Part shown: piece after piece, positions 40,423 through 50,819 of the stretch
How the letters are laid out: each line of letters begins with the position of its first letter
Numbering within the stretch: the stretch's first letter is position 1
Assembly: GCA_002689455.1 (NCBI GenBank)
Contig: NZGE01000015.1
Coordinates: forward strand, 1 to 53,776
Direction of reading: 5' to 3'
Origin: Magnetococcales bacterium
GTDB taxonomy: Bacteria; Pseudomonadota; Alphaproteobacteria; UBA2136
DNA: 53,776 nt
The notes under the pieces: generated by a model
What the model saw: the letters and a program-made list of their open reading frames with translations, nothing else
What the model was told of the DNA's origin: nothing
The model's database searches: none
Translations under genes and position numbers: made by a program

Positions 40423-41650
40423 TACGCAACACCTCCACAGGGTCAAGTTTTGCAGCACGGCGCGCAGGCTCTAAAGCGGCAGCCACAGAAAGAACCATTG
40501 AAATAATAATTGTTAATCCAATATCGTTCCAATTAACAGCGGTTGGTAGTTCTTCTAAAAAGTAAGCTTCCCCACTGAAAATAGAAACTCCGAAAATGCC
40601 CTCTAAAACGCTTACAATGCTTTGCAAGTTATAAACAATAACCAAGCCCGAAACAACGCCAAGGGTTGTACCAATAAGCCCAATAATAGAACCGCCAAAT
40701 GCAAACACTTTTAAAATATCGTGCTTACCAGCCCCCATACTTCTTAAAATAGCAATTTCACCACGCTTGCCGTTTACGCTCATCATTTGACCTGTTAAAA
40801 CATTAAAAGATGCAAGCGCAACCAAGAGCGATAGAATAATAAACATTGAGACCTTTTCAACCTCTAGGGCTTCAAAGAACTGCTGGTTGCTGTCCTTCCA
40901 AGTCATCACATAAGCGCTTGGATTTCCAATTTCCCTTTCAAGCAATGCACGGTACGTTGAAATTTTCATCGGGTCAGTAACCTTTAGTTCAATTCCTGTT
41001 ACGTTATCCCCCATTTTAAGGAATTTTTGTGCTGTGGGCATGGACGTGTAAACCCACGTTTCATTGTAAAGATTCATCCCAACATCATAAACTGCAACAA
41101 CTTTAACTTTAACCATACGCGGAATAAAACCAAATGGCGTGGTAGAGCCTTGTGGCGCCACCAAGTTAATAACAGAGCCAACACCGGCTTGAATTTTATG
41201 GGACAATTCTTTACCAATTGCAATGGTATTCATTTCTGAAAGCTTTGAAAGGTCTCCCGCCAGTAAAAAATTATCTTTAAAGACAAAGTTTTTACGTTTT
41301 TCAGGGTCAATTCCACGTAGTAAAACACCAGAAGCGGAACCACGATTCATAACCAACGCTTGTCCTTGAACAAAAACCTCAGCTTTTTGTGTAAAATCTA
41401 ATTTTTCCAAACCAGTGGCAAGTTTTTCAGCTTCTGCTGTTTGAGCATAAGGAACATGCGCTGTGGCATGCCCACTCATCCCCAAAATTTTACCCATTAA
41501 CTCCCCACGAAATCCATTCATAACCGACATAACAATAATAAGTGCAGCAACACCCAAAGTAATACCAATGAGTGAGAATGTTGACACAACCGATACAAAC
41601 CCCTTACGAGCCCTAAAGTATCGCCATGCCATGTAGGTGTGAAATGACAT
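40415..41650 (-). CDS. Lipoprotein-releasing ABC transporter permease LolC/LolE
   Basis: YMAWRYFRARKGFVSVVSTFSLIGITLGVAALIIVMSVMNGFR, GKRGEIAILRSMGA, AALEPARRAAKLDPVEVLR. Confidence 0.95.
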   Translation of the reverse strand: MSFHTYMAWRYFRARKGFVSVVSTFSLIGITLGVAALIIVMSVMNGFRGELMGKILGMSGHATAHVPYAQTAEAEKLATGLEKLDFTQKAEVFVQGQALVMNRGSASGVLLRGIDPEKRKNFVFKDNFLLAGDLSKLSEMNTIAIGKELSHKIQAGVGSVINLVAPQGSTTPFGFIPRMVKVKVVAVYDVGMNLYNETWVYTSMPTAQKFLKMGDNVTGIELKVTDPMKISTYRALLEREIGNPSAYVMTWKDSNQQFFEALEVEKVSMFIILSLLVALASFNVLTGQMMSVNGKRGEIAILRSMGAGKHDILKVFAFGGSIIGLIGTTLGVVSGLVIVYNLQSIVSVLEGIFGVSIFSGEAYFLEELPTAVNWNDIGLTIIISMVLSVAAALEPARRAAKLDPVEVLRSE

Positions 41651-42906
41651 TAAGCCGCTTTACCTATAGTTACAGTAAAAGATTGTGGTAATTCCCCAAG
41701 TGGTAGTTCCATTTTTTCACCTGTTTTACGATTCTTCCATTCCATAACGCCATTTTCAAGCCCTTTTGGCCCAATAACACATTGCCAAGGTAAACCAATA
41801 AGATCCATTTCATTAAACTTTTGACCTGGCGAAACATCACGGTCATCTAATAAAACTTCAATACCTTGAGATTGCAAGTCGGCATATAGCTTTTCAGCGG
41901 CTTCCTTAACATCGTCGTTTTTCATTTTCATTGCAATGATACCCACTTTAAACGGCGCAATTGAATCTGGCCAAACAATACCATTTTCATCGAAGTTTTG
42001 TTCAATAGCTGCCGCTACTAAACGAGAAACACCAATACCATAGCACCCCATTACAACGGGAACAGGTTTACCGTCTTGAGCAACAACTGTTGCGTTCATT
42101 GGTTTAGAATAAACATCTTCAAGCAAGAAAATGTGCCCTACTTCAATACCTTTTTTCTGTTCAAGCTGATCTTTAGGTTTTGGTGCTTCGGCTTCAACAT
42201 ATTTTTCAACGTTTACAGCATAGTCACCTGTTGGGTCGAACAATAAATCATCTTCACCTGTTTCCGCCAAAACGTGAAACTCGTGTGAGTAATTACCGCC
42301 AATAGCACCTGTATCGGCTAAAACTTGACGATACTCCAAGCCTAAACGTTTAAAAATAGCATGATAAGCTAAACGCATTTTTTCATATGACTCTAATGCA
42401 CTTTCGCGGCTAACATCAAAGCTGTAGCAGTCTTTCATCATAAATTCACGGCCACGCATTAAACCAAAACGCGGACGAATTTCATCGCGGAATTTCGTTT
42501 GAATTTGATAAAGCATTACAGGTAACTGCTTGTAGCTTTGAATGTTATTACGGTACAGGTCTGTCACCACTTCTTCGTGTGTTGGGCCAAGGCAGAAATC
42601 ACGGTCGTGACGGTCCTTAATGCGGCAAAGTTCTGCGTCCATTTTATCCCAACGGCCTGTTTCTTGCCAAAATTCAGCAGGTTGAATCATTGGCATCAAA
42701 ATTTCTTGTGCGCCTGCACGGTTCATTTCTTCACGCACTATATTTTGAACATTTTGTAAAACTTTTAAACCAAGCGGCAACCAGTTATAAACACCACTTG
42801 TTACTTGACGGATCATACCCGCACGCAGTAGTAAACGATGCGACGGAACCTGAGCCTCAGCTGGGTTTTCTTTTAAAGTTGGTAAAAATGTTTGTGAAAG
42901 GCGCAT
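41650..42906 (-). CDS. proS: Prolyl-tRNA synthetase
   Basis: [58 protein letters not shown]; short form (418 aa). Confidence 0.97.
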
Positions 42907-43123
42907 AGAACCTATTTCCTTATATAAAATTATTTAGCATATGACCGACAATGTCATAACAAATAACAGCATAGAGAAACAGCCCAAAAAGTCAACGCAT
43001 TTAGCGTTAAAAATGCACTTAAAAAAACACAAAAATGAACCATAAAGCAACTTTATTCAAACAAGTCACACCCGCAACAATACAAACCAACATGAGTTTT
43101 TTTATTTTTGTGCATAAACACTA

Positions 43124-43151
43124 TTGACAAGAAAAATTTTCAGGTTATGAT
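43124..43151 (+). promoter_or_regulatory. sigma70-type promoter for tRNA-Met
   Basis: TTGACA (43124-43129), 16-nt spacer, TATGAT (43146-43151). Confidence 0.7.
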
Positions 43152-43168
43152 GCAAAACGTTCATACAT

Positions 43169-43245
43169 GGCGCTTTAGCTCAGTTGGTTAGAGCAGTGGA
43201 ATCATAATCCAAAGGTCCGGGGTTCAAGTCCCTGAAGCGCCACCA
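43169..43245 (+). tRNA. tRNA-Met (CAT), CCA encoded
   Basis: GGCGCTT/AAGCGCC acceptor, D arm AGCTCAGTTGGTTAGAGC, anticodon loop ATCATAA, T arm CCGGGGTTCAAGTCCCTG. Confidence 0.93.
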
Positions 43246-43417
43246 TTTTCCCAATTAAATTAAATTTTAAACACCTCATAAATTTACACGCAATCCGTGT
43301 ACACACGCTCTTACTATATACCCCTTAAGAGATACAAGGTATTGTTTTTCTTGATATTCAAGTTTAATTTACACATAATAAAAAAAGGGTTATTAGGGTA
43401 GTTTTAAAGGGGTAAAT

Positions 43418-43735
43418 ATGATTCGTTGTACATTTAGCGACGCTTTAAAAATTAAAGAAGACGCTATTACACGCAACGTTGTTGTTAATTTTGAACACGG
43501 TTTTCGTGTAAACATTGACGTACACATTGCGCAAACTGAAGAAAATAAAATTGGCTGGCGCATTAATATGCATGGTAACAGCGAAGTTATTAAAGCCGCC
43601 AAGAAAGAACTTTTCGAACACACAGTACACTACCTTGAAAAACGCCTACGCAAAACTTTAAACACAATTTCGTTTGAAGACATTATACTTCTCACACAGG
43701 CAAAGCCCATTAAATCTGTATCAAGGAATGACTAA
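43418..43735 (+). CDS. Hypothetical protein (105 aa)
   Basis: SD AAAGGGGTAAAT upstream; stop overlaps the next start (TAATG). Confidence 0.7.
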   Translation: MIRCTFSDALKIKEDAITRNVVVNFEHGFRVNIDVHIAQTEENKIGWRINMHGNSEVIKAAKKELFEHTVHYLEKRLRKTLNTISFEDIILLTQAKPIKSVSRND

Positions 43736-44142
43736 TGATTTTACAAAACCTCGTAACGCATGATTCACGTAATATTAAAACCGTTATGGATAACATCACC
43801 ATTTATGATGTTGCAGACATCATATTTAAACAAGGATTATCGTCTGTTCTTGTTTTAAACAAAGCAAAAAAATCAATTGGCATTGTGACTGAGCAAGATG
43901 TTGTTTTAGCCATTAAAACATTTAAACAAAAAATTTTAGAGCTCAAAATCACTGAAATTATGTCCGTTGATTTGATGGCCTGCCACCCTGACGAAGCAAT
44001 TGACGAAGCTGTAAGGGTTATGGGAGCATATAAAATAAGAAACTTACCCATCATCACCGAAAGTGGAAATTTATCAGGATTTATTGACCTAAACACCATT
44101 GCACGTGCCCAACTTTCTCACATTATTCAGCGCTGGGGCTAA
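43735..44142 (+). CDS. CBS-domain pair protein
   Basis: VADIIFKQGLSSVLVLNKAKKSIGIVTEQDVVLAI and ITEIMSVDLMACHPDEAIDEAVRVMGAYKIRNLPIITESGNLSGFIDL. Confidence 0.88.
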   Translation: MILQNLVTHDSRNIKTVMDNITIYDVADIIFKQGLSSVLVLNKAKKSIGIVTEQDVVLAIKTFKQKILELKITEIMSVDLMACHPDEAIDEAVRVMGAYKIRNLPIITESGNLSGFIDLNTIARAQLSHIIQRWG

Positions 44143-44157
44143 ACCTTTAAATTTATT

Positions 44158-44194
44158 CAAAAAAGCACACCTTTTAAAAGTGTGCTTTTTTTAC
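44158..44194. terminator. Rho-independent terminator
   Basis: AAAAAAGCACACTTTT-type stem: GCACACCTTTTAAAAGTGTGCTTTTTTT. Confidence 0.85.
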
Positions 44195-44338
44195 ATCAAA
44201 CCCAAAAATAACAAACTTTTAACTATGAATTTGTATGATAAATAACATATTGATTTTTAATAACATGTTTATTTTTTAGCCAATCTGTGAAAATGTGTCT
44301 ATTGTATCAAAATTAAAAGGTCTTTATATTCACCTTCC

Positions 44339-44464
44339 ATGAAATGGATAACTCGTACAGCTGCGCCTTACTTATTAATCACATGGGTGGTTACATCTTT
44401 TGTTATTTGGATGTCGCAATACGGGTCTGTTATCGAAAATATTATGAACACCTTATTACACTGA
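44339..44464 (+). CDS. Putative small membrane protein (41 aa)
   Basis: MKWITRTAAPYLLITWVVTSFVIWMSQYGSVIENIMNTLLH*, one TM segment, 28 bp upstream of the next gene; not in the ORF track. Confidence 0.45.
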   Translation: MKWITRTAAPYLLITWVVTSFVIWMSQYGSVIENIMNTLLH

Positions 44465-44492
44465 ATTACATAATAATAACAAGGTCTACGCA

Positions 44493-46397
44493 GTGGAATT
44501 TTTACAACTAATGCTCATTTTACCGTGGGTTTTTGCATTTGTTTTAACAGGCAGGTTTACGCTTCGCTTTTTTGGTATTACACATTTAAAGGGTATTTCG
44601 TCTTTCACCTTTAACTACTGGGCAGGCTTTTCAATCATCAGCCTTATTCTTTTCATATACACAAGCTTATTTACATTGAATCTAACCGCAGTTACTTCTA
44701 TATTTTCAATTGCATTTCTTGGCTTCTTACCAAGTAAAACACAAACAATGAAAAGCCACTTTAAGTCATTTGATCAAGGTCATTTGCTTAGTTCTTTATT
44801 TGTGCTTGCATGCCTTATCACCCTACCTGCAGCCATGACAGCCCCACTAGCTGGCTCAAGCCTAGAATATCACCTAGCCATTCCCAAAGCTATCGCTGAA
44901 ACAGGCGAAATGTCACTAACAATGGATAGTTTTATTCAATCAGGCCCCCTATTATCACATAACATAAGCGCCGCTGCATATTTAGCAGGCGGTGAAAAGT
45001 TGATGATGTTACATGGCTGGTCACTATTCTTACTTTCTGGGTTAGCTGTTTTCACATTGGCACGCCGCCGTTTACGTGTGGGTTCTTCATGGATTTTCAC
45101 ATCATTGGTTATGAGCTTACCCGCATTAACTTACAGTGCAGGAAGTGGCATTATAGAACCAAGACTTTTAGGGCTTGTAACACTGGCTGCTTTTTCTCTT
45201 ATTTACTACGCACGCAGTGAAAAGCTTTCATGGCTTGTTTTAAGCGCATTGTTTATTGGTACAGCAGCGCAAATGCATATTATTGGTATATTTACCTACA
45301 TGGCCTTTTTAATAACCGCCATCTTAATCCAAAAAGACTTTGGCCTTAAAAAAGGTCTTAGTCACTTTGCATTATTTACCATTTTATGCACATTTATTTC
45401 AGCACCTTTTTATCTTTGGGCGTACTCTGAAACGGGTAAAGTTCTTATTCCGTTTATGAACGACCTTTCAGGTATGACAGGCTGGAGCGATATGCAACAA
45501 GCTTTATATAACCAAGAAGCTTTAACGCAATCAAACTTTGTAGAGCGCACAAAGTCAAACTGGCTATTCACTTACCCACTTGCAATGACCCTAAAAGCCA
45601 AAGAATGGGGCACAAGCCACCTTGGATTGGGACCCTTATTTTTAATGTCGCTTATACCTGGCCTTATCCTTGTATTTAAAAGGTTTTCATACATCAGTCC
45701 AATAGCTAAACCAATAGGCACACTTGAGCTTCACGTTTACCTATTCATGACCTTTTATGCACTTTGGTTCTTTTATGGCATGTCTATGGAACCACAAAGC
45801 CTGATACCAATGCTACCTCTACTTATGCTTCCAGCATGGGTTATGGCGGAAACACTCATTGCACGCAGCTCATTTGCCATTCGAAGCAGCATTATCACAG
45901 CAACCTTTGCAATCATGGCTGTACAATATGGTATTTCATCTAAGTTAAACCAACCTGCCATAGCGCTTTTCTTTAAAAAAATACCTTTAGAAACTTACAT
46001 TGCATATAACATGCCTGAAGTAAACGTAGCTCAATATTTAAAGCGCACCATGAATGATGGCGATAAAGTACTCTACACGCAAAACGGTAAAATGAACTAT
46101 GTGCTTGGACGTAAAGGGTTTTATGCCCCAGCCGTATTCCAAGAAAAAATCCCAGTTGCATTTGGCACAAGCACCGATATTATCAACAGTGCTTTAAGTG
46201 AAAATATAACCATGTGGGTTACTGAAAATGATGCGACAAACCCAAGCTACGACAGTGACTTTAACGCACACAAACACCTAAGAAAACTTATAAATTACGG
46301 CTGCTTTAGAGAAGACGGTTACATTGAACCTGTCCCGAATAAAAGTTTTTACGTGTATAGGTTTATTCACAATTGCCAAGGCCGTGCAACGTTATAA
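44493..46397 (+). CDS. Multi-TM protein, probable GT-C-fold glycosyltransferase-like
   Basis: 634 aa with >10 hydrophobic segments; LEYHLAIPKAIAETG resembles the first-loop motif of GT-C/GT39-like proteins; GTG start with AAGG SD. Confidence 0.6.
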   Translation: MEFLQLMLILPWVFAFVLTGRFTLRFFGITHLKGISSFTFNYWAGFSIISLILFIYTSLFTLNLTAVTSIFSIAFLGFLPSKTQTMKSHFKSFDQGHLLSSLFVLACLITLPAAMTAPLAGSSLEYHLAIPKAIAETGEMSLTMDSFIQSGPLLSHNISAAAYLAGGEKLMMLHGWSLFLLSGLAVFTLARRRLRVGSSWIFTSLVMSLPALTYSAGSGIIEPRLLGLVTLAAFSLIYYARSEKLSWLVLSALFIGTAAQMHIIGIFTYMAFLITAILIQKDFGLKKGLSHFALFTILCTFISAPFYLWAYSETGKVLIPFMNDLSGMTGWSDMQQALYNQEALTQSNFVERTKSNWLFTYPLAMTLKAKEWGTSHLGLGPLFLMSLIPGLILVFKRFSYISPIAKPIGTLELHVYLFMTFYALWFFYGMSMEPQSLIPMLPLLMLPAWVMAETLIARSSFAIRSSIITATFAIMAVQYGISSKLNQPAIALFFKKIPLETYIAYNMPEVNVAQYLKRTMNDGDKVLYTQNGKMNYVLGRKGFYAPAVFQEKIPVAFGTSTDIINSALSENITMWVTENDATNPSYDSDFNAHKHLRKLINYGCFREDGYIEPVPNKSFYVYRFIHNCQGRATL

Positions 46398-46496
46398 AAT
46401 CATACAAAAGGGGCAAAACATTTAAAACAAACAATAGCTTATTTCATATAGGATTTTTTTAGAAAATAATTATTGTTTTAGGGTTGAAGTTTATCC

Positions 46497-46515
46497 ATTA
46501 TTTTCATATATGAAA
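46497..46515. promoter_or_regulatory. Putative operator copy 1: ATTATTTTCATATATGAAA
   Basis: Contains perfect palindrome TTTCATATATGAAA (46502-46515); 19 bp identical to 48257-48275; overlaps the annotated ATG at 46510. Confidence 0.6.
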
Positions 46516-48153
46516 GTAACAGACAAAAAAAACCCATACATGAAACCGGACCTAAAAATGGATACATTATTCAGAAATATTGCCAAACAGCTAAAAAAAG
46601 CAATTGAAGAAAAAGATATTTCTATTTCAGAACTTGCTAAAAAAGCAGATGTATCCGATGCCACACTAAGCCGTATTTTATCAGGTGAGGCCAACCCTTC
46701 TTTTGATAAAATTGTACGTATTGCAAAGTCCTTAGAAATAAGCCTAGACAAACTAACGGGCTTACCTATTAAGGAAGTGGAAAGTAACGCCCCCACCCTT
46801 GAGCAAGAGGATTATTCAAATGAAACCGACATTCTAGCCAGTTTTGAAATAAGCGATACAGACTTAACACCTTCCCAAGCATCTCGTATGCTTACAAGCG
46901 CTGCCAACGGCACATGGATAGCGCACCCACACGACAGTTTGATTAAAGAAAACACACCGCGTGTTAAGCCTATTTTTTGCATGCAAACTGGCACACGTAA
47001 AATATGTGTGGATTTAGCATTCCCACACACCTACGTTGAAGAAGGTTCCATTGCCAGCCTTATTGGTGTTATTGGTTCAGCCCTTGCAGGTACACAAGCC
47101 AAACTTATGGATATTCGCATACCTACAGCGTTGGTGCGCACCTTTAAAGCCCCTTTTAATGGCAGACAATCTATTTTGGAAAAAATGTCTGAAACCCCCC
47201 GCCCGTTGCTAAGCGTGACCATGCGCCCTATGACAGGCTTAACACCACAGCACTATGCAGATACTGTATATAAATTGCTAAAAAACGGTGTTGACTTCAC
47301 ATGCGACCCCACCATGATGCATTCACTTCCTGAACACGACTTTCGTGAGCGTGTAAACCGCATTGCAGAAGTAATCAATGAGCTAAAATATGAAGAGTCA
47401 CTTCGAAATAAGCACCACATGGTGAATGTAAGTGCAGCCACCACAGAAGAAGTGATTGACCGTGCACGCCATGCTGTTTATGCAGGGTTAAAATACCTAT
47501 TAATCGACACCTCCGCAACGGGCTTTAGCACACTACAAAGCCTACGTAAATTTGCAGAAGAACATGACGTTATTATTGCAGCCATGGGCGCCCGTGGCAT
47601 GCAAACAGCCACCATGAGCGAACAAGTTATTGCAAAACTTTTACGCTTTGCAGGGGCAGATATTGTAAGTATTCCAAGCCCGCTAGGGGAAAGCTTTCAA
47701 AACTCACGCCGTCAAGTTAAAGGAACTATTTTATCCCTTATCGGTGATGACCCAATTGCGCAAGACCACTTAGGCCTTTCCTTCGACCAACCAACACTTT
47801 GCATGAAACAATCCATTCCAGCAGTTGGTGGTGGGCACAACCCATGGCACTTTCCACGCATTATAGACACGGTAGGCGCAGGCTGCATTATTCAATGTGG
47901 CGCCAATGTTATGAGCCATCCAAACGGCATTGAAGCAGGTGCAAAAGCAAATATTGCAGCCGTTACAGCGCTGATGGAAGCATCCAAAAAGGGCCAAAGC
48001 CTTGCCGTTGAAGGAAAGAAGATATTGCAAGAATCCGCAAGACACAATGAAGCCTTAAAAGAAGCCTTAAAACATTGGAGCGAAGGCGCATTTCTATTTG
48101 GGGTTATTGAAGGCGACAAAACCAACATATCAGGCACCATTAAGGTCGTATAA
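46510..48153 (+). CDS. XRE-family HTH domain fused to a RuBisCO-like (Form IV-type, catalytically degenerate) large-subunit domain; putative transcriptional regulator
   Basis: HTH: DISISELAKKADVSDATLSRILSGEANPSFDKIVRIAKSLEISLDKL. RLP: TDILASFEISDTDLTPSQASRMLTSAANGTW; VEEGSIASLIGVIGS; DIRIPTALVRTFKAPFNG; RPLLSVTMRPMTGL; NGVDFTCD; VGGGHNPWHFPRII; IQCGANVMSHPNGIEAGAKANIAAVTALMEASKKGQSLAVEGKKILQESARHNEALKEALKHW. Confidence 0.9.
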   Translation: MKVTDKKNPYMKPDLKMDTLFRNIAKQLKKAIEEKDISISELAKKADVSDATLSRILSGEANPSFDKIVRIAKSLEISLDKLTGLPIKEVESNAPTLEQEDYSNETDILASFEISDTDLTPSQASRMLTSAANGTWIAHPHDSLIKENTPRVKPIFCMQTGTRKICVDLAFPHTYVEEGSIASLIGVIGSALAGTQAKLMDIRIPTALVRTFKAPFNGRQSILEKMSETPRPLLSVTMRPMTGLTPQHYADTVYKLLKNGVDFTCDPTMMHSLPEHDFRERVNRIAEVINELKYEESLRNKHHMVNVSAATTEEVIDRARHAVYAGLKYLLIDTSATGFSTLQSLRKFAEEHDVIIAAMGARGMQTATMSEQVIAKLLRFAGADIVSIPSPLGESFQNSRRQVKGTILSLIGDDPIAQDHLGLSFDQPTLCMKQSIPAVGGGHNPWHFPRIIDTVGAGCIIQCGANVMSHPNGIEAGAKANIAAVTALMEASKKGQSLAVEGKKILQESARHNEALKEALKHWSEGAFLFGVIEGDKTNISGTIKVV

Positions 48154-48163
48154 ATCTTAAAAA

Positions 48164-48250
48164 TTTGATGCGTATCATACGCATATCATACGAAAAAAAG
48201 GTGCATCACCAACGTATCGGTGCGTTCAATACGCATCAAATACGCATCAC
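48164..48250. repeat. Nested inverted repeat built from ATGCGTAT/ATACGCAT units
   Basis: TTTGATGCGTAT (48164-48175) / ATACGCATCAAA (48229-48240); inner ACGCA/TGCGT, ATACG/CGTAT and GGTG-CAT-CACC; plus an extra direct copy ATACGCATCAC (48240-48250). Confidence 0.75.
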
Positions 48251-48256
48251 GGACAA

Positions 48257-48275
48257 ATTATTTTCATATATGAAA
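48257..48275. promoter_or_regulatory. Putative operator copy 2: ATTATTTTCATATATGAAA
   Basis: Identical 19 bp to 46497-46515; here a perfect 16-bp palindrome TTTTCATATATGAAAA (48261-48276). Confidence 0.55.
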
Positions 48276-48373
48276 ATTAATACGAAACATATGGCGTATG
48301 AAACCTGCACAAAGCACCAATGATAAAGAAACGGAAAAGATATTGTATTTACAGATTCTTTCTTAAAGCCAAT

Positions 48374-48404
48374 AAAAAAGGAGGCTAATCGCCTCCTTTT
48401 TTAT
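48374..48404. terminator. Bidirectional Rho-independent terminator between convergent genes
   Basis: AAAAAAGGAGGC-taatc-GCCTCCTTTTTTATT. Confidence 0.88.
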
Positions 48405-49224
48405 TTTCCTGTGGTAACTCTGGAATAATCTTCAAGCGGTTTTCTGGTTCTTCCAACAGTCGCTTTAATGCTTTAACCTTGGTAACACCACTGTCGCCCA
48501 ACCTATCCACCGTTTGCAGAAAGCTTTGGTATGCAAAAGGTGTTAAAAGAGAAGATAAATATTCTGCGTAAATTTCATTGCTTAAAGGCTCTACTTCTTT
48601 ATGCAACTTATGCTTTTTAAGGCTTTTATCATCACGCAAAGTTTCTACCGTAAAATCACTTCGATCAAGCAGGCTATATGAATGTAAAGGCATTCCCATT
48701 AAACTACCAACCGCCTTTGAAACCACATGCACCGAACAAGGGTTTGACAACTTCTGCCCTGTTATATGTGCCAGTGCAATGTTAATTCGTGAAATATCTG
48801 TCATATTAAAATGCATTTTTTCACCTAATTTTTGTGAAGCAAACACCTCTTTACAGTCAACTTCATTGGTGGAAAGCCCCCAGCTGTGCGTATCGAACCC
48901 TATAAACATTTTGTCACGCCCTGGGTTGCGTGAAAAACGAGCTTTAGGTAACGAACGTTCTAAAGGTACAACGTTAAAGCTATATGCTTTTTCGTAATCT
49001 TCTTTGGTAAAAATAAACTGCGCCTTGCGAGTGTCGTAGTAATATTCACCCTTTAAAGGTAAACCAGAAAGCTTCGCCACACCTTCATCATCTACTTCAA
49101 TGTAAAATGTTAAATATGCGTCCTTAATTTTCATGCCGTATCCAGCAAAAGCCTCACTTACAAAAAAAAGTGAAGATAAAAGCATAAAAAAGATTGTTTT
49201 TTTAATGTTGGCAGTTGATTTCAT
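48385..49224 (-). CDS. Hypothetical exported protein
   Basis: Signal peptide MKSTANIKKTIFFMLLSSLFFVSEAFA; no family recognised. Confidence 0.7.
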   Translation of the reverse strand: MKSTANIKKTIFFMLLSSLFFVSEAFAGYGMKIKDAYLTFYIEVDDEGVAKLSGLPLKGEYYYDTRKAQFIFTKEDYEKAYSFNVVPLERSLPKARFSRNPGRDKMFIGFDTHSWGLSTNEVDCKEVFASQKLGEKMHFNMTDISRINIALAHITGQKLSNPCSVHVVSKAVGSLMGMPLHSYSLLDRSDFTVETLRDDKSLKKHKLHKEVEPLSNEIYAEYLSSLLTPFAYQSFLQTVDRLGDSGVTKVKALKRLLEEPENRLKIIPELPQENKKGGD

Positions 49225-49280
49225 AAACGTCTATTGCTACTTTGTCTTTTATATTTCTAAACTATTTAAGGATGACATCC

Positions 49281-49844
49281 ATGAGAATTAATGGCAACCA
49301 AATTCGCCCAGGTATGGTACTTGAGCACCAAGGCCGTTTGTGGCGTGTTGCAAAGATTTCGCACACTCAGCCTGGTAAAGGTGGCGCATACACCCAAGCC
49401 GAAATGAAAGACATTGTTTCTGGCACAAAACTAAACGAGCGTTTCCGTTCTTCTGAAACAGTTGAACGTGCACGTTTAGAGCAAGTTGAAATGCAGTACC
49501 TATACGACGATGGCATGGCCTTAAACTTCATGAACACAGAGAACTATGAACAAGTTGCCCTAAACTATGACATGGTGGGCGACCTTAAAGTTTGGCTACA
49601 AGAAAACATGATGGTTCAAATTGAGTTTTATGAAGACAAAGCCATTGGCATTGAACTTCCTGAAAAAATTGTTATGGAAATTACAGAAGCTGAAGCTACT
49701 GTTAAAGGCCAAACACAATCATCTTCATTTAAACCTGCGGTTGTTGAAAACGGTGAAACCGTTATGGTTCCACAGTTCATCAGCTCGGGTGAAAAAATTG
49801 TCATCAACACAACCGATGGCTCTTACGTAGAGCGTGCAAAGTAA
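49281..49844 (+). CDS. efp: Elongation factor P (start revised from 49242)
   Basis: MRINGNQIRPGMVLEHQGRLWRVAKISHTQPGKGGAYTQAEMKDI...KLNERFRSSETVE; AAGGATGACATCCATG upstream. Confidence 0.96.
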   Translation: MRINGNQIRPGMVLEHQGRLWRVAKISHTQPGKGGAYTQAEMKDIVSGTKLNERFRSSETVERARLEQVEMQYLYDDGMALNFMNTENYEQVALNYDMVGDLKVWLQENMMVQIEFYEDKAIGIELPEKIVMEITEAEATVKGQTQSSSFKPAVVENGETVMVPQFISSGEKIVINTTDGSYVERAK

Positions 49845-49891
49845 AAGAAACATCTTTTCACTTGCAACATTGCATACAATACATTACAACA

Positions 49892-49917
49892 CCCTTAAAC
49901 CCTAACCGGTTTAAGGG
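49892..49917. terminator. Terminator-like hairpin after efp
   Basis: CCCTTAAACC-ctaacc-GGTTTAAGGG; weak U tract. Confidence 0.5.
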
Positions 49918-49994
49918 ATGTTAATAGACCATTTTGGCAGTTATCGTTATAATAACCGTCAAATAAACAAATTTACAAAAGGCTCTTTGATAAT

Positions 49995-50819
49995 ATGAAA
50001 CAGAACATGAAGCAAAGTCGTGAACGTACCATGGCTTTTTCGGACAACGCCCAACTTAACATTATGGAGCGTATGGCAAGACGTAGCGCTAAACCATTTA
50101 AATTAGCGTTTGTTGACATTGAACGTAAACTTGTAACCAAAGATGGCGCTGCCAACTTAACAAGCGAAACGCTTTCTAAAATGGAGCGATTCTACACACA
50201 AGATATCACCGAAAAAGCACCTGACGATGCTTTAGTATTCACAACAGGCAGCAGCTTACCAACAGAAGGTAGCGCTTGGCTAGTAAACACATGTGGTAGT
50301 GCTATTAACTTAGCCCACGGCCACGAACCTGTGAACGTTTCATTTGCTTACATGGTAGACGGCGTTATTCAATGCGCCCTTGTTTATTACCCACTAACAG
50401 ATGAAATTTTTGCCATTGAGCACGGTAAAGGTGCTTACAGCCATGAAGGTCGCTTACGCGTTTCGGGCAAAGACCTTGTTGAAAACAGCCTTGTTTCTAT
50501 TTTCTCACCAGTGACAAACACACAAGACGAAGATACATACTTCAACCTTGTAAAACTTGCACGTAAAAACAACTGCCACGTACGTACTTCTGGCAACCTA
50601 ATTCACGATGCAATTACGCACTGTAAAGGTAAACTAGACAGCATTATTTCCATCAACCAAAAACCTGTTGATGTTTTCATCAGCCAATTCATTATTCGTG
50701 AATCTGGTGGTTCTGCATGCGAACTAGGCAGTAAAGCCATTGAACTTGGCAGCACAGAAATTTTAGCTGCAAACAGCAAACTTCAAGGTAAATGGTTGCG
50801 TTTATTAGCTGCTAAATAA
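49995..50819 (+). CDS. Inositol monophosphatase family protein (HisN/SuhB/CysQ-like)
   Basis: KLAFVDIERKLVTKDGAANLTSET, CALVYYPLTDEIFAIEHGKGAY, GKLDSIISINQKPVDVFISQFIIRESGGSACELG. Confidence 0.75.
   Translation: MKQNMKQSRERTMAFSDNAQLNIMERMARRSAKPFKLAFVDIERKLVTKDGAANLTSETLSKMERFYTQDITEKAPDDALVFTTGSSLPTEGSAWLVNTCGSAINLAHGHEPVNVSFAYMVDGVIQCALVYYPLTDEIFAIEHGKGAYSHEGRLRVSGKDLVENSLVSIFSPVTNTQDEDTYFNLVKLARKNNCHVRTSGNLIHDAITHCKGKLDSIISINQKPVDVFISQFIIRESGGSACELGSKAIELGSTEILAANSKLQGKWLRLLAAK

Follow-up and report, generated by a model that had tools for sequence, protein, structure and literature searches.

The window, a 53,776-nucleotide stretch of DNA from a Magnetococcales bacterium, carries on its forward strand an unbroken reading frame of 547 codons (46510–48153) that contains a helix-turn-helix domain of the HTH_3 family and a near-complete RuBisCO large subunit. 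We refer to the product as HTH-RbcL. The reading frame opens at 46510, and this first ATG falls within a perfect palindrome (46502–46515). In an alignment, the homolog from the same genus (L002, 75% identical) begins at the position equivalent to 46558. So, the true start of the protein is probably at 46558 or 46540, which puts the palindrome upstream of the protein. We take 46558 as the probable start and 46540 as a possible one, and we annotate the fusion protein at 46558–48150 (forward strand, with the stop codon at 48151–48153).

The preliminary description of this DNA had claimed that an HTH and a RuBisCO-like protein share one open reading frame, and Pfam, a sequence search of the PDB, and a predicted structure all confirm this. 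The XRE/Cro-CI helix-turn-helix domain (46591–46755, forward strand) matches PF01381 at residues 28–82 of the fusion (E = 8.5e-14, 51.8 bits versus a curated cut-off of 23), and its helices lie at residues 5–24, 29–35, 40–47, and 55–64 of the structural model. It is followed by a variable, fast-evolving linker (46756–46815), which is predicted to be disordered (pLDDT below 50 at model residues 76–92). The RuBisCO large-subunit-like region (46795–48108) has an N-terminal domain at about 46810–47130 and a TIM-barrel domain at about 47173–48078. RuBisCO_large matches residues 222–523 (E = 5.7e-42) and RuBisCO_large_N matches residues 101–207 (E = 4e-4, 20.9 bits, barely above the cut-off of 20.7), so the HTH and RuBisCO families are both above their cut-offs in the same reading frame. 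A phmmer search of the PDB aligned residues 96–533 with Form I large subunits, and the best match (E = 2.2e-58) was 7qsw, an ancestral reconstruction of a RuBisCO that has small subunits. Among the RuBisCO models of NCBIfam, the general large-subunit model (PRK04208) scored highest, with 256 bits, ahead of Form III (184), the methionine-salvage enolase models (121 and 95), and Form II (65), but every one of these scores is below the model's curated cut-off.

The AlphaFold model (mean pLDDT 83.5, pTM 0.75) consists of an HTH bundle, the disordered linker, and a RuBisCO fold. Foldseek placed the C-terminal region in the RuBisCO fold, and among the 50 PDB matches listed, nearly all were Form I RuBisCOs (TM-score by target of 0.80–0.88, E values down to 7e-35). 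HTH-RbcL is a member of the RuBisCO superfamily, with an N-terminal ferredoxin-like domain and a TIM barrel that match along almost the whole length.

The fusion is not an assembly error, because its architecture is conserved in every homolog that we aligned. The hosts are Alphaproteobacteria with small genomes, from a lineage about which little is known. The window's genome has one copy of the gene, full-length homologs that include the HTH are present in 16 of 17 relatives from the same order (36–75% identical), and 3 of 6 genomes from a second order also have the fusion. These 20 aligned members (the window's genome, 16 from its order, and 3 from the second order) are the family that we analyze below. 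On the question of whether the two parts could be separate genes, the homologs show one gene: the reading frame is open and full-length in all 20. We scanned 386 genomes of the class and found that full-length matches with high scores were confined to the two orders, and the remaining matches were ordinary RbcL proteins that begin after the HTH or were weaker and partial. When we scanned 85,462 species genomes with peptides from the family, we obtained 18 loci, all from uncultured bacteria that are labeled as Proteobacteria, Alphaproteobacteria, or similar (one is labeled as Pseudomonadaceae). Two scans of viral contigs found no relatives of the fusion, and we rejected a viral origin.

Among close pairs with a finite dS, dN/dS was about 0.05–0.12 for the RuBisCO part and 0.03–0.28 for the HTH, with dS close to saturation in several of these pairs. 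Judging from these ratios, both domains are under purifying selection, with the HTH mostly evolving faster than the RuBisCO part. An artefact of assembly or frameshifting, or else a decaying pseudogene, is hardly credible as an explanation: the window does come from a draft assembly of 75 contigs, but the same fusion is open in 20 genomes and dN/dS is far below 1 in both domains.

The gene lies between proS and genes resembling efp and inositol monophosphatase (41650–50819), and in several relatives it also lies near proS or efp. This shared location suggests vertical inheritance in these lineages. No metabolic gene is a constant neighbor across the family; the recurrent neighbors are housekeeping genes of the proS and efp type. 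The upstream neighbor in the window (44493–46397) encodes a predicted membrane protein of 634 amino acids that has no Pfam match and that adjoins the gene in the congener as well. Downstream of the HTH-RbcL gene, the congener has three tandem paralogous reading frames (L055, 5919–8541), each of which starts with MPLPKNDPHA; they are not at the corresponding place in the window.

The preliminary description had framed the RuBisCO part as a Form IV RuBisCO-like protein (RLP), and phylogeny contradicts this. We built two maximum-likelihood trees with reference sequences from genomes of the class, plasmids, and PDB alignments; the second tree retained Form III alone as the outgroup. The family forms a single clade (100/100) in both trees, and its stem, which is long (about 1.3 changes per site), joins the tree at the base of Form I; in the first tree, a 100/100 branch unites the family with Form I against Forms II, III, and IV. 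With the sample of the second tree, there was no preference between a placement inside Form I and a position as sister to all of Form I (p-AU = 0.435). In 18 of the 20 members (all of those outside the window's genus), the HTH-RbcL gene is followed immediately by the small-subunit gene (rbcS). From the trees and the adjoining rbcS, we conclude that HTH-RbcL is a Form I derivative and not a Form IV protein.

The two members that are missing rbcS are those of the window's genome and of its congener, and a search with the family profile found no remnant of it at either locus. HTH-RbcL in these two genomes also has no C-terminal tail with a TPF-like motif at its end, which most of the other members have. 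In this genus, as seen at 48154–48384 in the window and in L055 of the congener, it is possible that rbcS and the tail were lost jointly.

To describe the active site, we mapped the 20 members to spinach RuBisCO, whose numbering we use (all codons below are on the forward strand). The catalytic Lys175 is replaced by Arg (47224–47226), His327 by Ser, and Ser379 by Gly in all 20 members. The codons that align with the carbamate Lys201, Asp202, and Asp203 (47302–47310) encode Cys, Asp, and Pro in the window, so the Mg-carbamate center is lost. Across the family, Lys201 is replaced by Cys, Ala, or Val, Asp203 by Pro or Ala, Glu204 by Thr or Ala, and His294 by Gly, Ser, Ala, Thr, or Asn. The loop-6 Lys334 is Gly in 18 of the 20 and is Glu in the window (47689–47691). 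Because residues 175, 201, 203, 204, 327, and 334 are replaced in every member, HTH-RbcL cannot be a carboxylase. Part of the phosphate-binding frame stays, however. Arg295 (47593–47595) and Gly380, Gly381, and Gly403 are retained in all 20 members and Gly404 in 16, and the phosphate loop at 379–381 reads Gly-Gly-Gly (47827–47835). Other pocket residues are fixed in a family-specific way (Arg175, Ser327, Gly379, and His-Asn at 382–383). Overall, conservation is higher in the active-site columns than in columns drawn at random (mean entropy of 0.72 versus 1.27, P about 0.001), which suggests that the old RuBP pocket has been put to a new use.

Also, among 18 genomes of the order, none has a phosphoribulokinase match that passes the family cut-off (for the window's genome, completeness is 86%), so we do not expect a Calvin cycle in this order. 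Taken with the replaced catalytic and metal-binding residues, this led us to reject an active RuBisCO. The eight Form IV sequences that we aligned retain Lys201 and Asp203, unlike the HTH-RbcL family, so the residue patterns as well as the trees speak against a Form IV protein. It is thus very improbable that HTH-RbcL is a still-working RuBisCO, or a Form IV enzyme of methionine salvage or the isoapionate pathway, with an added HTH: it has the overall fold and length of RuBisCO, and its relatives have rbcS, but all seven of the residues described above that act in catalysis or metal binding (175, 201, 203, 204, 294, 327, and 334) are replaced, the order has no phosphoribulokinase match, and the family branches with Form I.

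What the HTH might bind is suggested by the palindrome at the start of the reading frame (TTTCATATATGAAA, 46502–46515), which we propose as an operator (site 1). The window has exactly two copies of this sequence, one on each side of the gene (at 46502 and 48262), as compared to 0.04 expected occurrences with one mismatch allowed. The downstream copy (48262–48275) is a possible looping site. A weaker, imperfect copy (TTTCATATAGGA, 46442–46453) lies 60 bp upstream of site 1. Between the end of the gene and the second perfect palindrome, there are nested inverted and direct repeats (48163–48250, GATGCGTATCATACGCAT and similar), which may be a terminator or a REP-like element. Our promoter scan gave no sigma-70 promoter that both points toward the gene and overlaps site 1. 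(TTGAAG-17-TATATG can be read by eye over site 1, but it fails the scan and we do not claim it.)

Across the family, the dyad TTNCA-N4-TGNAA is present with all 8 of 8 positions upstream of 12 of the 20 genes, as compared to 0 of 77 control genes that we took from these loci. The other 8 upstream regions have imperfect sites only, and some relatives have two sites upstream of the gene. The summed dyad score upstream of the 20 genes was 150, versus a mean of 117 (standard deviation 2.8) for shuffled sequences, but this statistic is partly circular because the motif was first read off members of the family; the comparison to control genes is cleaner. The conserved palindrome before its own gene suggests that HTH-RbcL is a self-controlled DNA-binding protein.

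We also searched for a wider regulon. In the window's genome, the only exact matches to TTYCATATATGRAA that we found were the pair that flanks the HTH-RbcL gene, and most of the matches with one mismatch were within genes. In searches of this genome and 18 relatives, the matches were mostly inside coding regions and included no recurring second target, and we rejected a wider regulon. In one relative (G075), an intergenic palindrome (L100, position 968) lies between a gene similar to cyclic-nucleotide-binding regulators and a transporter-like gene; it may be a second target there.

Given these patterns of sequence conservation, the explanation that we favor, with moderate confidence, is that HTH-RbcL is an autoregulated DNA-binding protein in which a dead Form I RuBisCO acts as a ligand sensor and oligomer. 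A Form I large subunit lost its Mg-carbamate center and catalytic lysines and acquired an N-terminal XRE-type HTH, and the dead RuBisCO part would have become an oligomeric ligand-binding module. In most species, the small subunit encoded by the neighboring gene would be part of the assembly, and in the window's genus HTH-RbcL would assemble without one. The HTH would bind TTNCA-N4-TGNAA in its own promoter region to repress or tune its operon. The affinity for DNA would change once the conserved pocket is occupied by a ligand, which would probably be a phosphorylated metabolite. The octameric Form I scaffold could bring DNA sites together. The preliminary description had proposed a one-component regulator, and this holds in part: the XRE-type HTH on a RuBisCO fold, the lost catalytic residues, and the palindrome in its own promoter region are consistent with it, at least as an autoregulator, and the genome-wide palindrome searches gave no recurring second target to suggest that it regulates anything else. 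The imperfect sites in 8 of the 20 members and the lack of a scan-passing sigma-70 promoter over site 1 bear against autoregulation.

A regulator that has only itself as a target would need some further function, and this is another point against our reading. Separately, we propose tentatively that the whole dead L8S8 holoenzyme is a transcription factor: its eight HTHs would bridge palindromes, such as the pair that flanks the gene, under the control of a phosphometabolite in the old RuBP pocket. If so, the small subunit survives as part of a gene regulator.

The main rival to autoregulation by a dead RuBisCO is that HTH-RbcL is an enzyme with new chemistry (an isomerase, enolase, or lyase without the Mg-carbamate center) whose HTH serves only to control the synthesis of the enzyme itself, or in other words, a "trigger enzyme" like PutA or BirA. 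As the HTH is mostly the faster-evolving part, a main job in the RuBisCO part would fit. The strongly conserved pocket with its fixed residues, the retention of the small subunit, and the lack of other recurring palindrome targets in the genome would fit as well. Nevertheless, we consider this rather unlikely because the metal ligands Lys201, Asp203, and Glu204 are gone from all 20 members, while the eight aligned Form IV sequences keep the first two, and because the gene's recurrent neighbors are housekeeping genes instead of a constant metabolic partner.

Another possibility is a structural or nucleoid-type role for HTH-RbcL as a DNA-binding oligomer. As Form I RuBisCO forms octamers, the RuBisCO part could cluster eight HTHs without sensing any ligand, and the two perfect palindromes that flank the gene, or the two upstream sites in some relatives, might be bound in this way. 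This is improbable because a mere scaffold has no need of a conserved pocket and because the genome is not rich in copies of the palindrome.

Returning to the dead RuBisCO as a sensor, its closest mechanistic precedent is BzdR, in which an XRE-type HTH is fused to a shikimate-kinase-like domain that has no enzyme activity and that binds the effector benzoyl-CoA (Durante-Rodriguez 2013, PMC3602430). Both proteins have an N-terminal XRE-type HTH, a linker, and a C-terminal domain that derives from a metabolic enzyme whose activity was lost. In contrast to BzdR, HTH-RbcL has a RuBisCO fold, is much larger, is probably oligomeric with a small subunit, and has no adjoining catabolic operon, and the one site that recurs is located at the promoter of its own gene. 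HTH-RbcL does not belong to the BzdR family proper: it has no shikimate-kinase-like domain, and PRK08154 matches residues 13–84 (the HTH) only, with 23.9 bits versus a cut-off of 204.

HTH-RbcL resembles Form I RuBisCO (RbcL/RbcS, L8S8) in its sequence, its predicted fold, its position at the base of Form I, and the adjacent rbcS of most members. It differs in its replaced catalytic lysines and Mg ligands, its extra HTH, the lack of phosphoribulokinase in the order, and, in the window's genus, the lack of rbcS. Form IV RLPs (MtnW, OiaX, and others) are also RuBisCO homologs that cannot fix CO2, but they lie elsewhere in the tree and those that we aligned keep Lys201 and Asp203; to our knowledge, they have neither a small subunit nor an HTH. 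One-component regulators of the SorC/DeoR, ROK (NagC), and RpiR families combine an HTH with a sensor domain that derives from enzymes of sugars or sugar phosphates, and in joining an HTH to an enzyme-derived domain they are similar to HTH-RbcL. However, we know of none with a RuBisCO fold, and as far as we know, their HTH classes are different.

The principle of an enzyme that turned into a regulator is thus known. A literature search, with subscription papers mostly outside its reach, found no earlier description of an HTH-RuBisCO fusion, and within that search a RuBisCO-based case with a retained small subunit is apparently undescribed. Alongside BzdR and other regulators that derive from enzymes, HTH-RbcL would be a case with a large and probably multivalent fold. 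There is also a practical consequence: automatic annotation could label these genes as RuBisCO, which would be a false hint of CO2 fixation in these genomes. Few enzymes have been studied as well as RuBisCO, and those of its relatives that are known not to carboxylate (Form IV) act as enzymes and have no small subunit. A dead Form I RuBisCO with a small subunit and an HTH would, if our reading is correct, be a new fate for the superfamily, and with HTH-RbcL the role of the small subunit apart from catalysis becomes testable.
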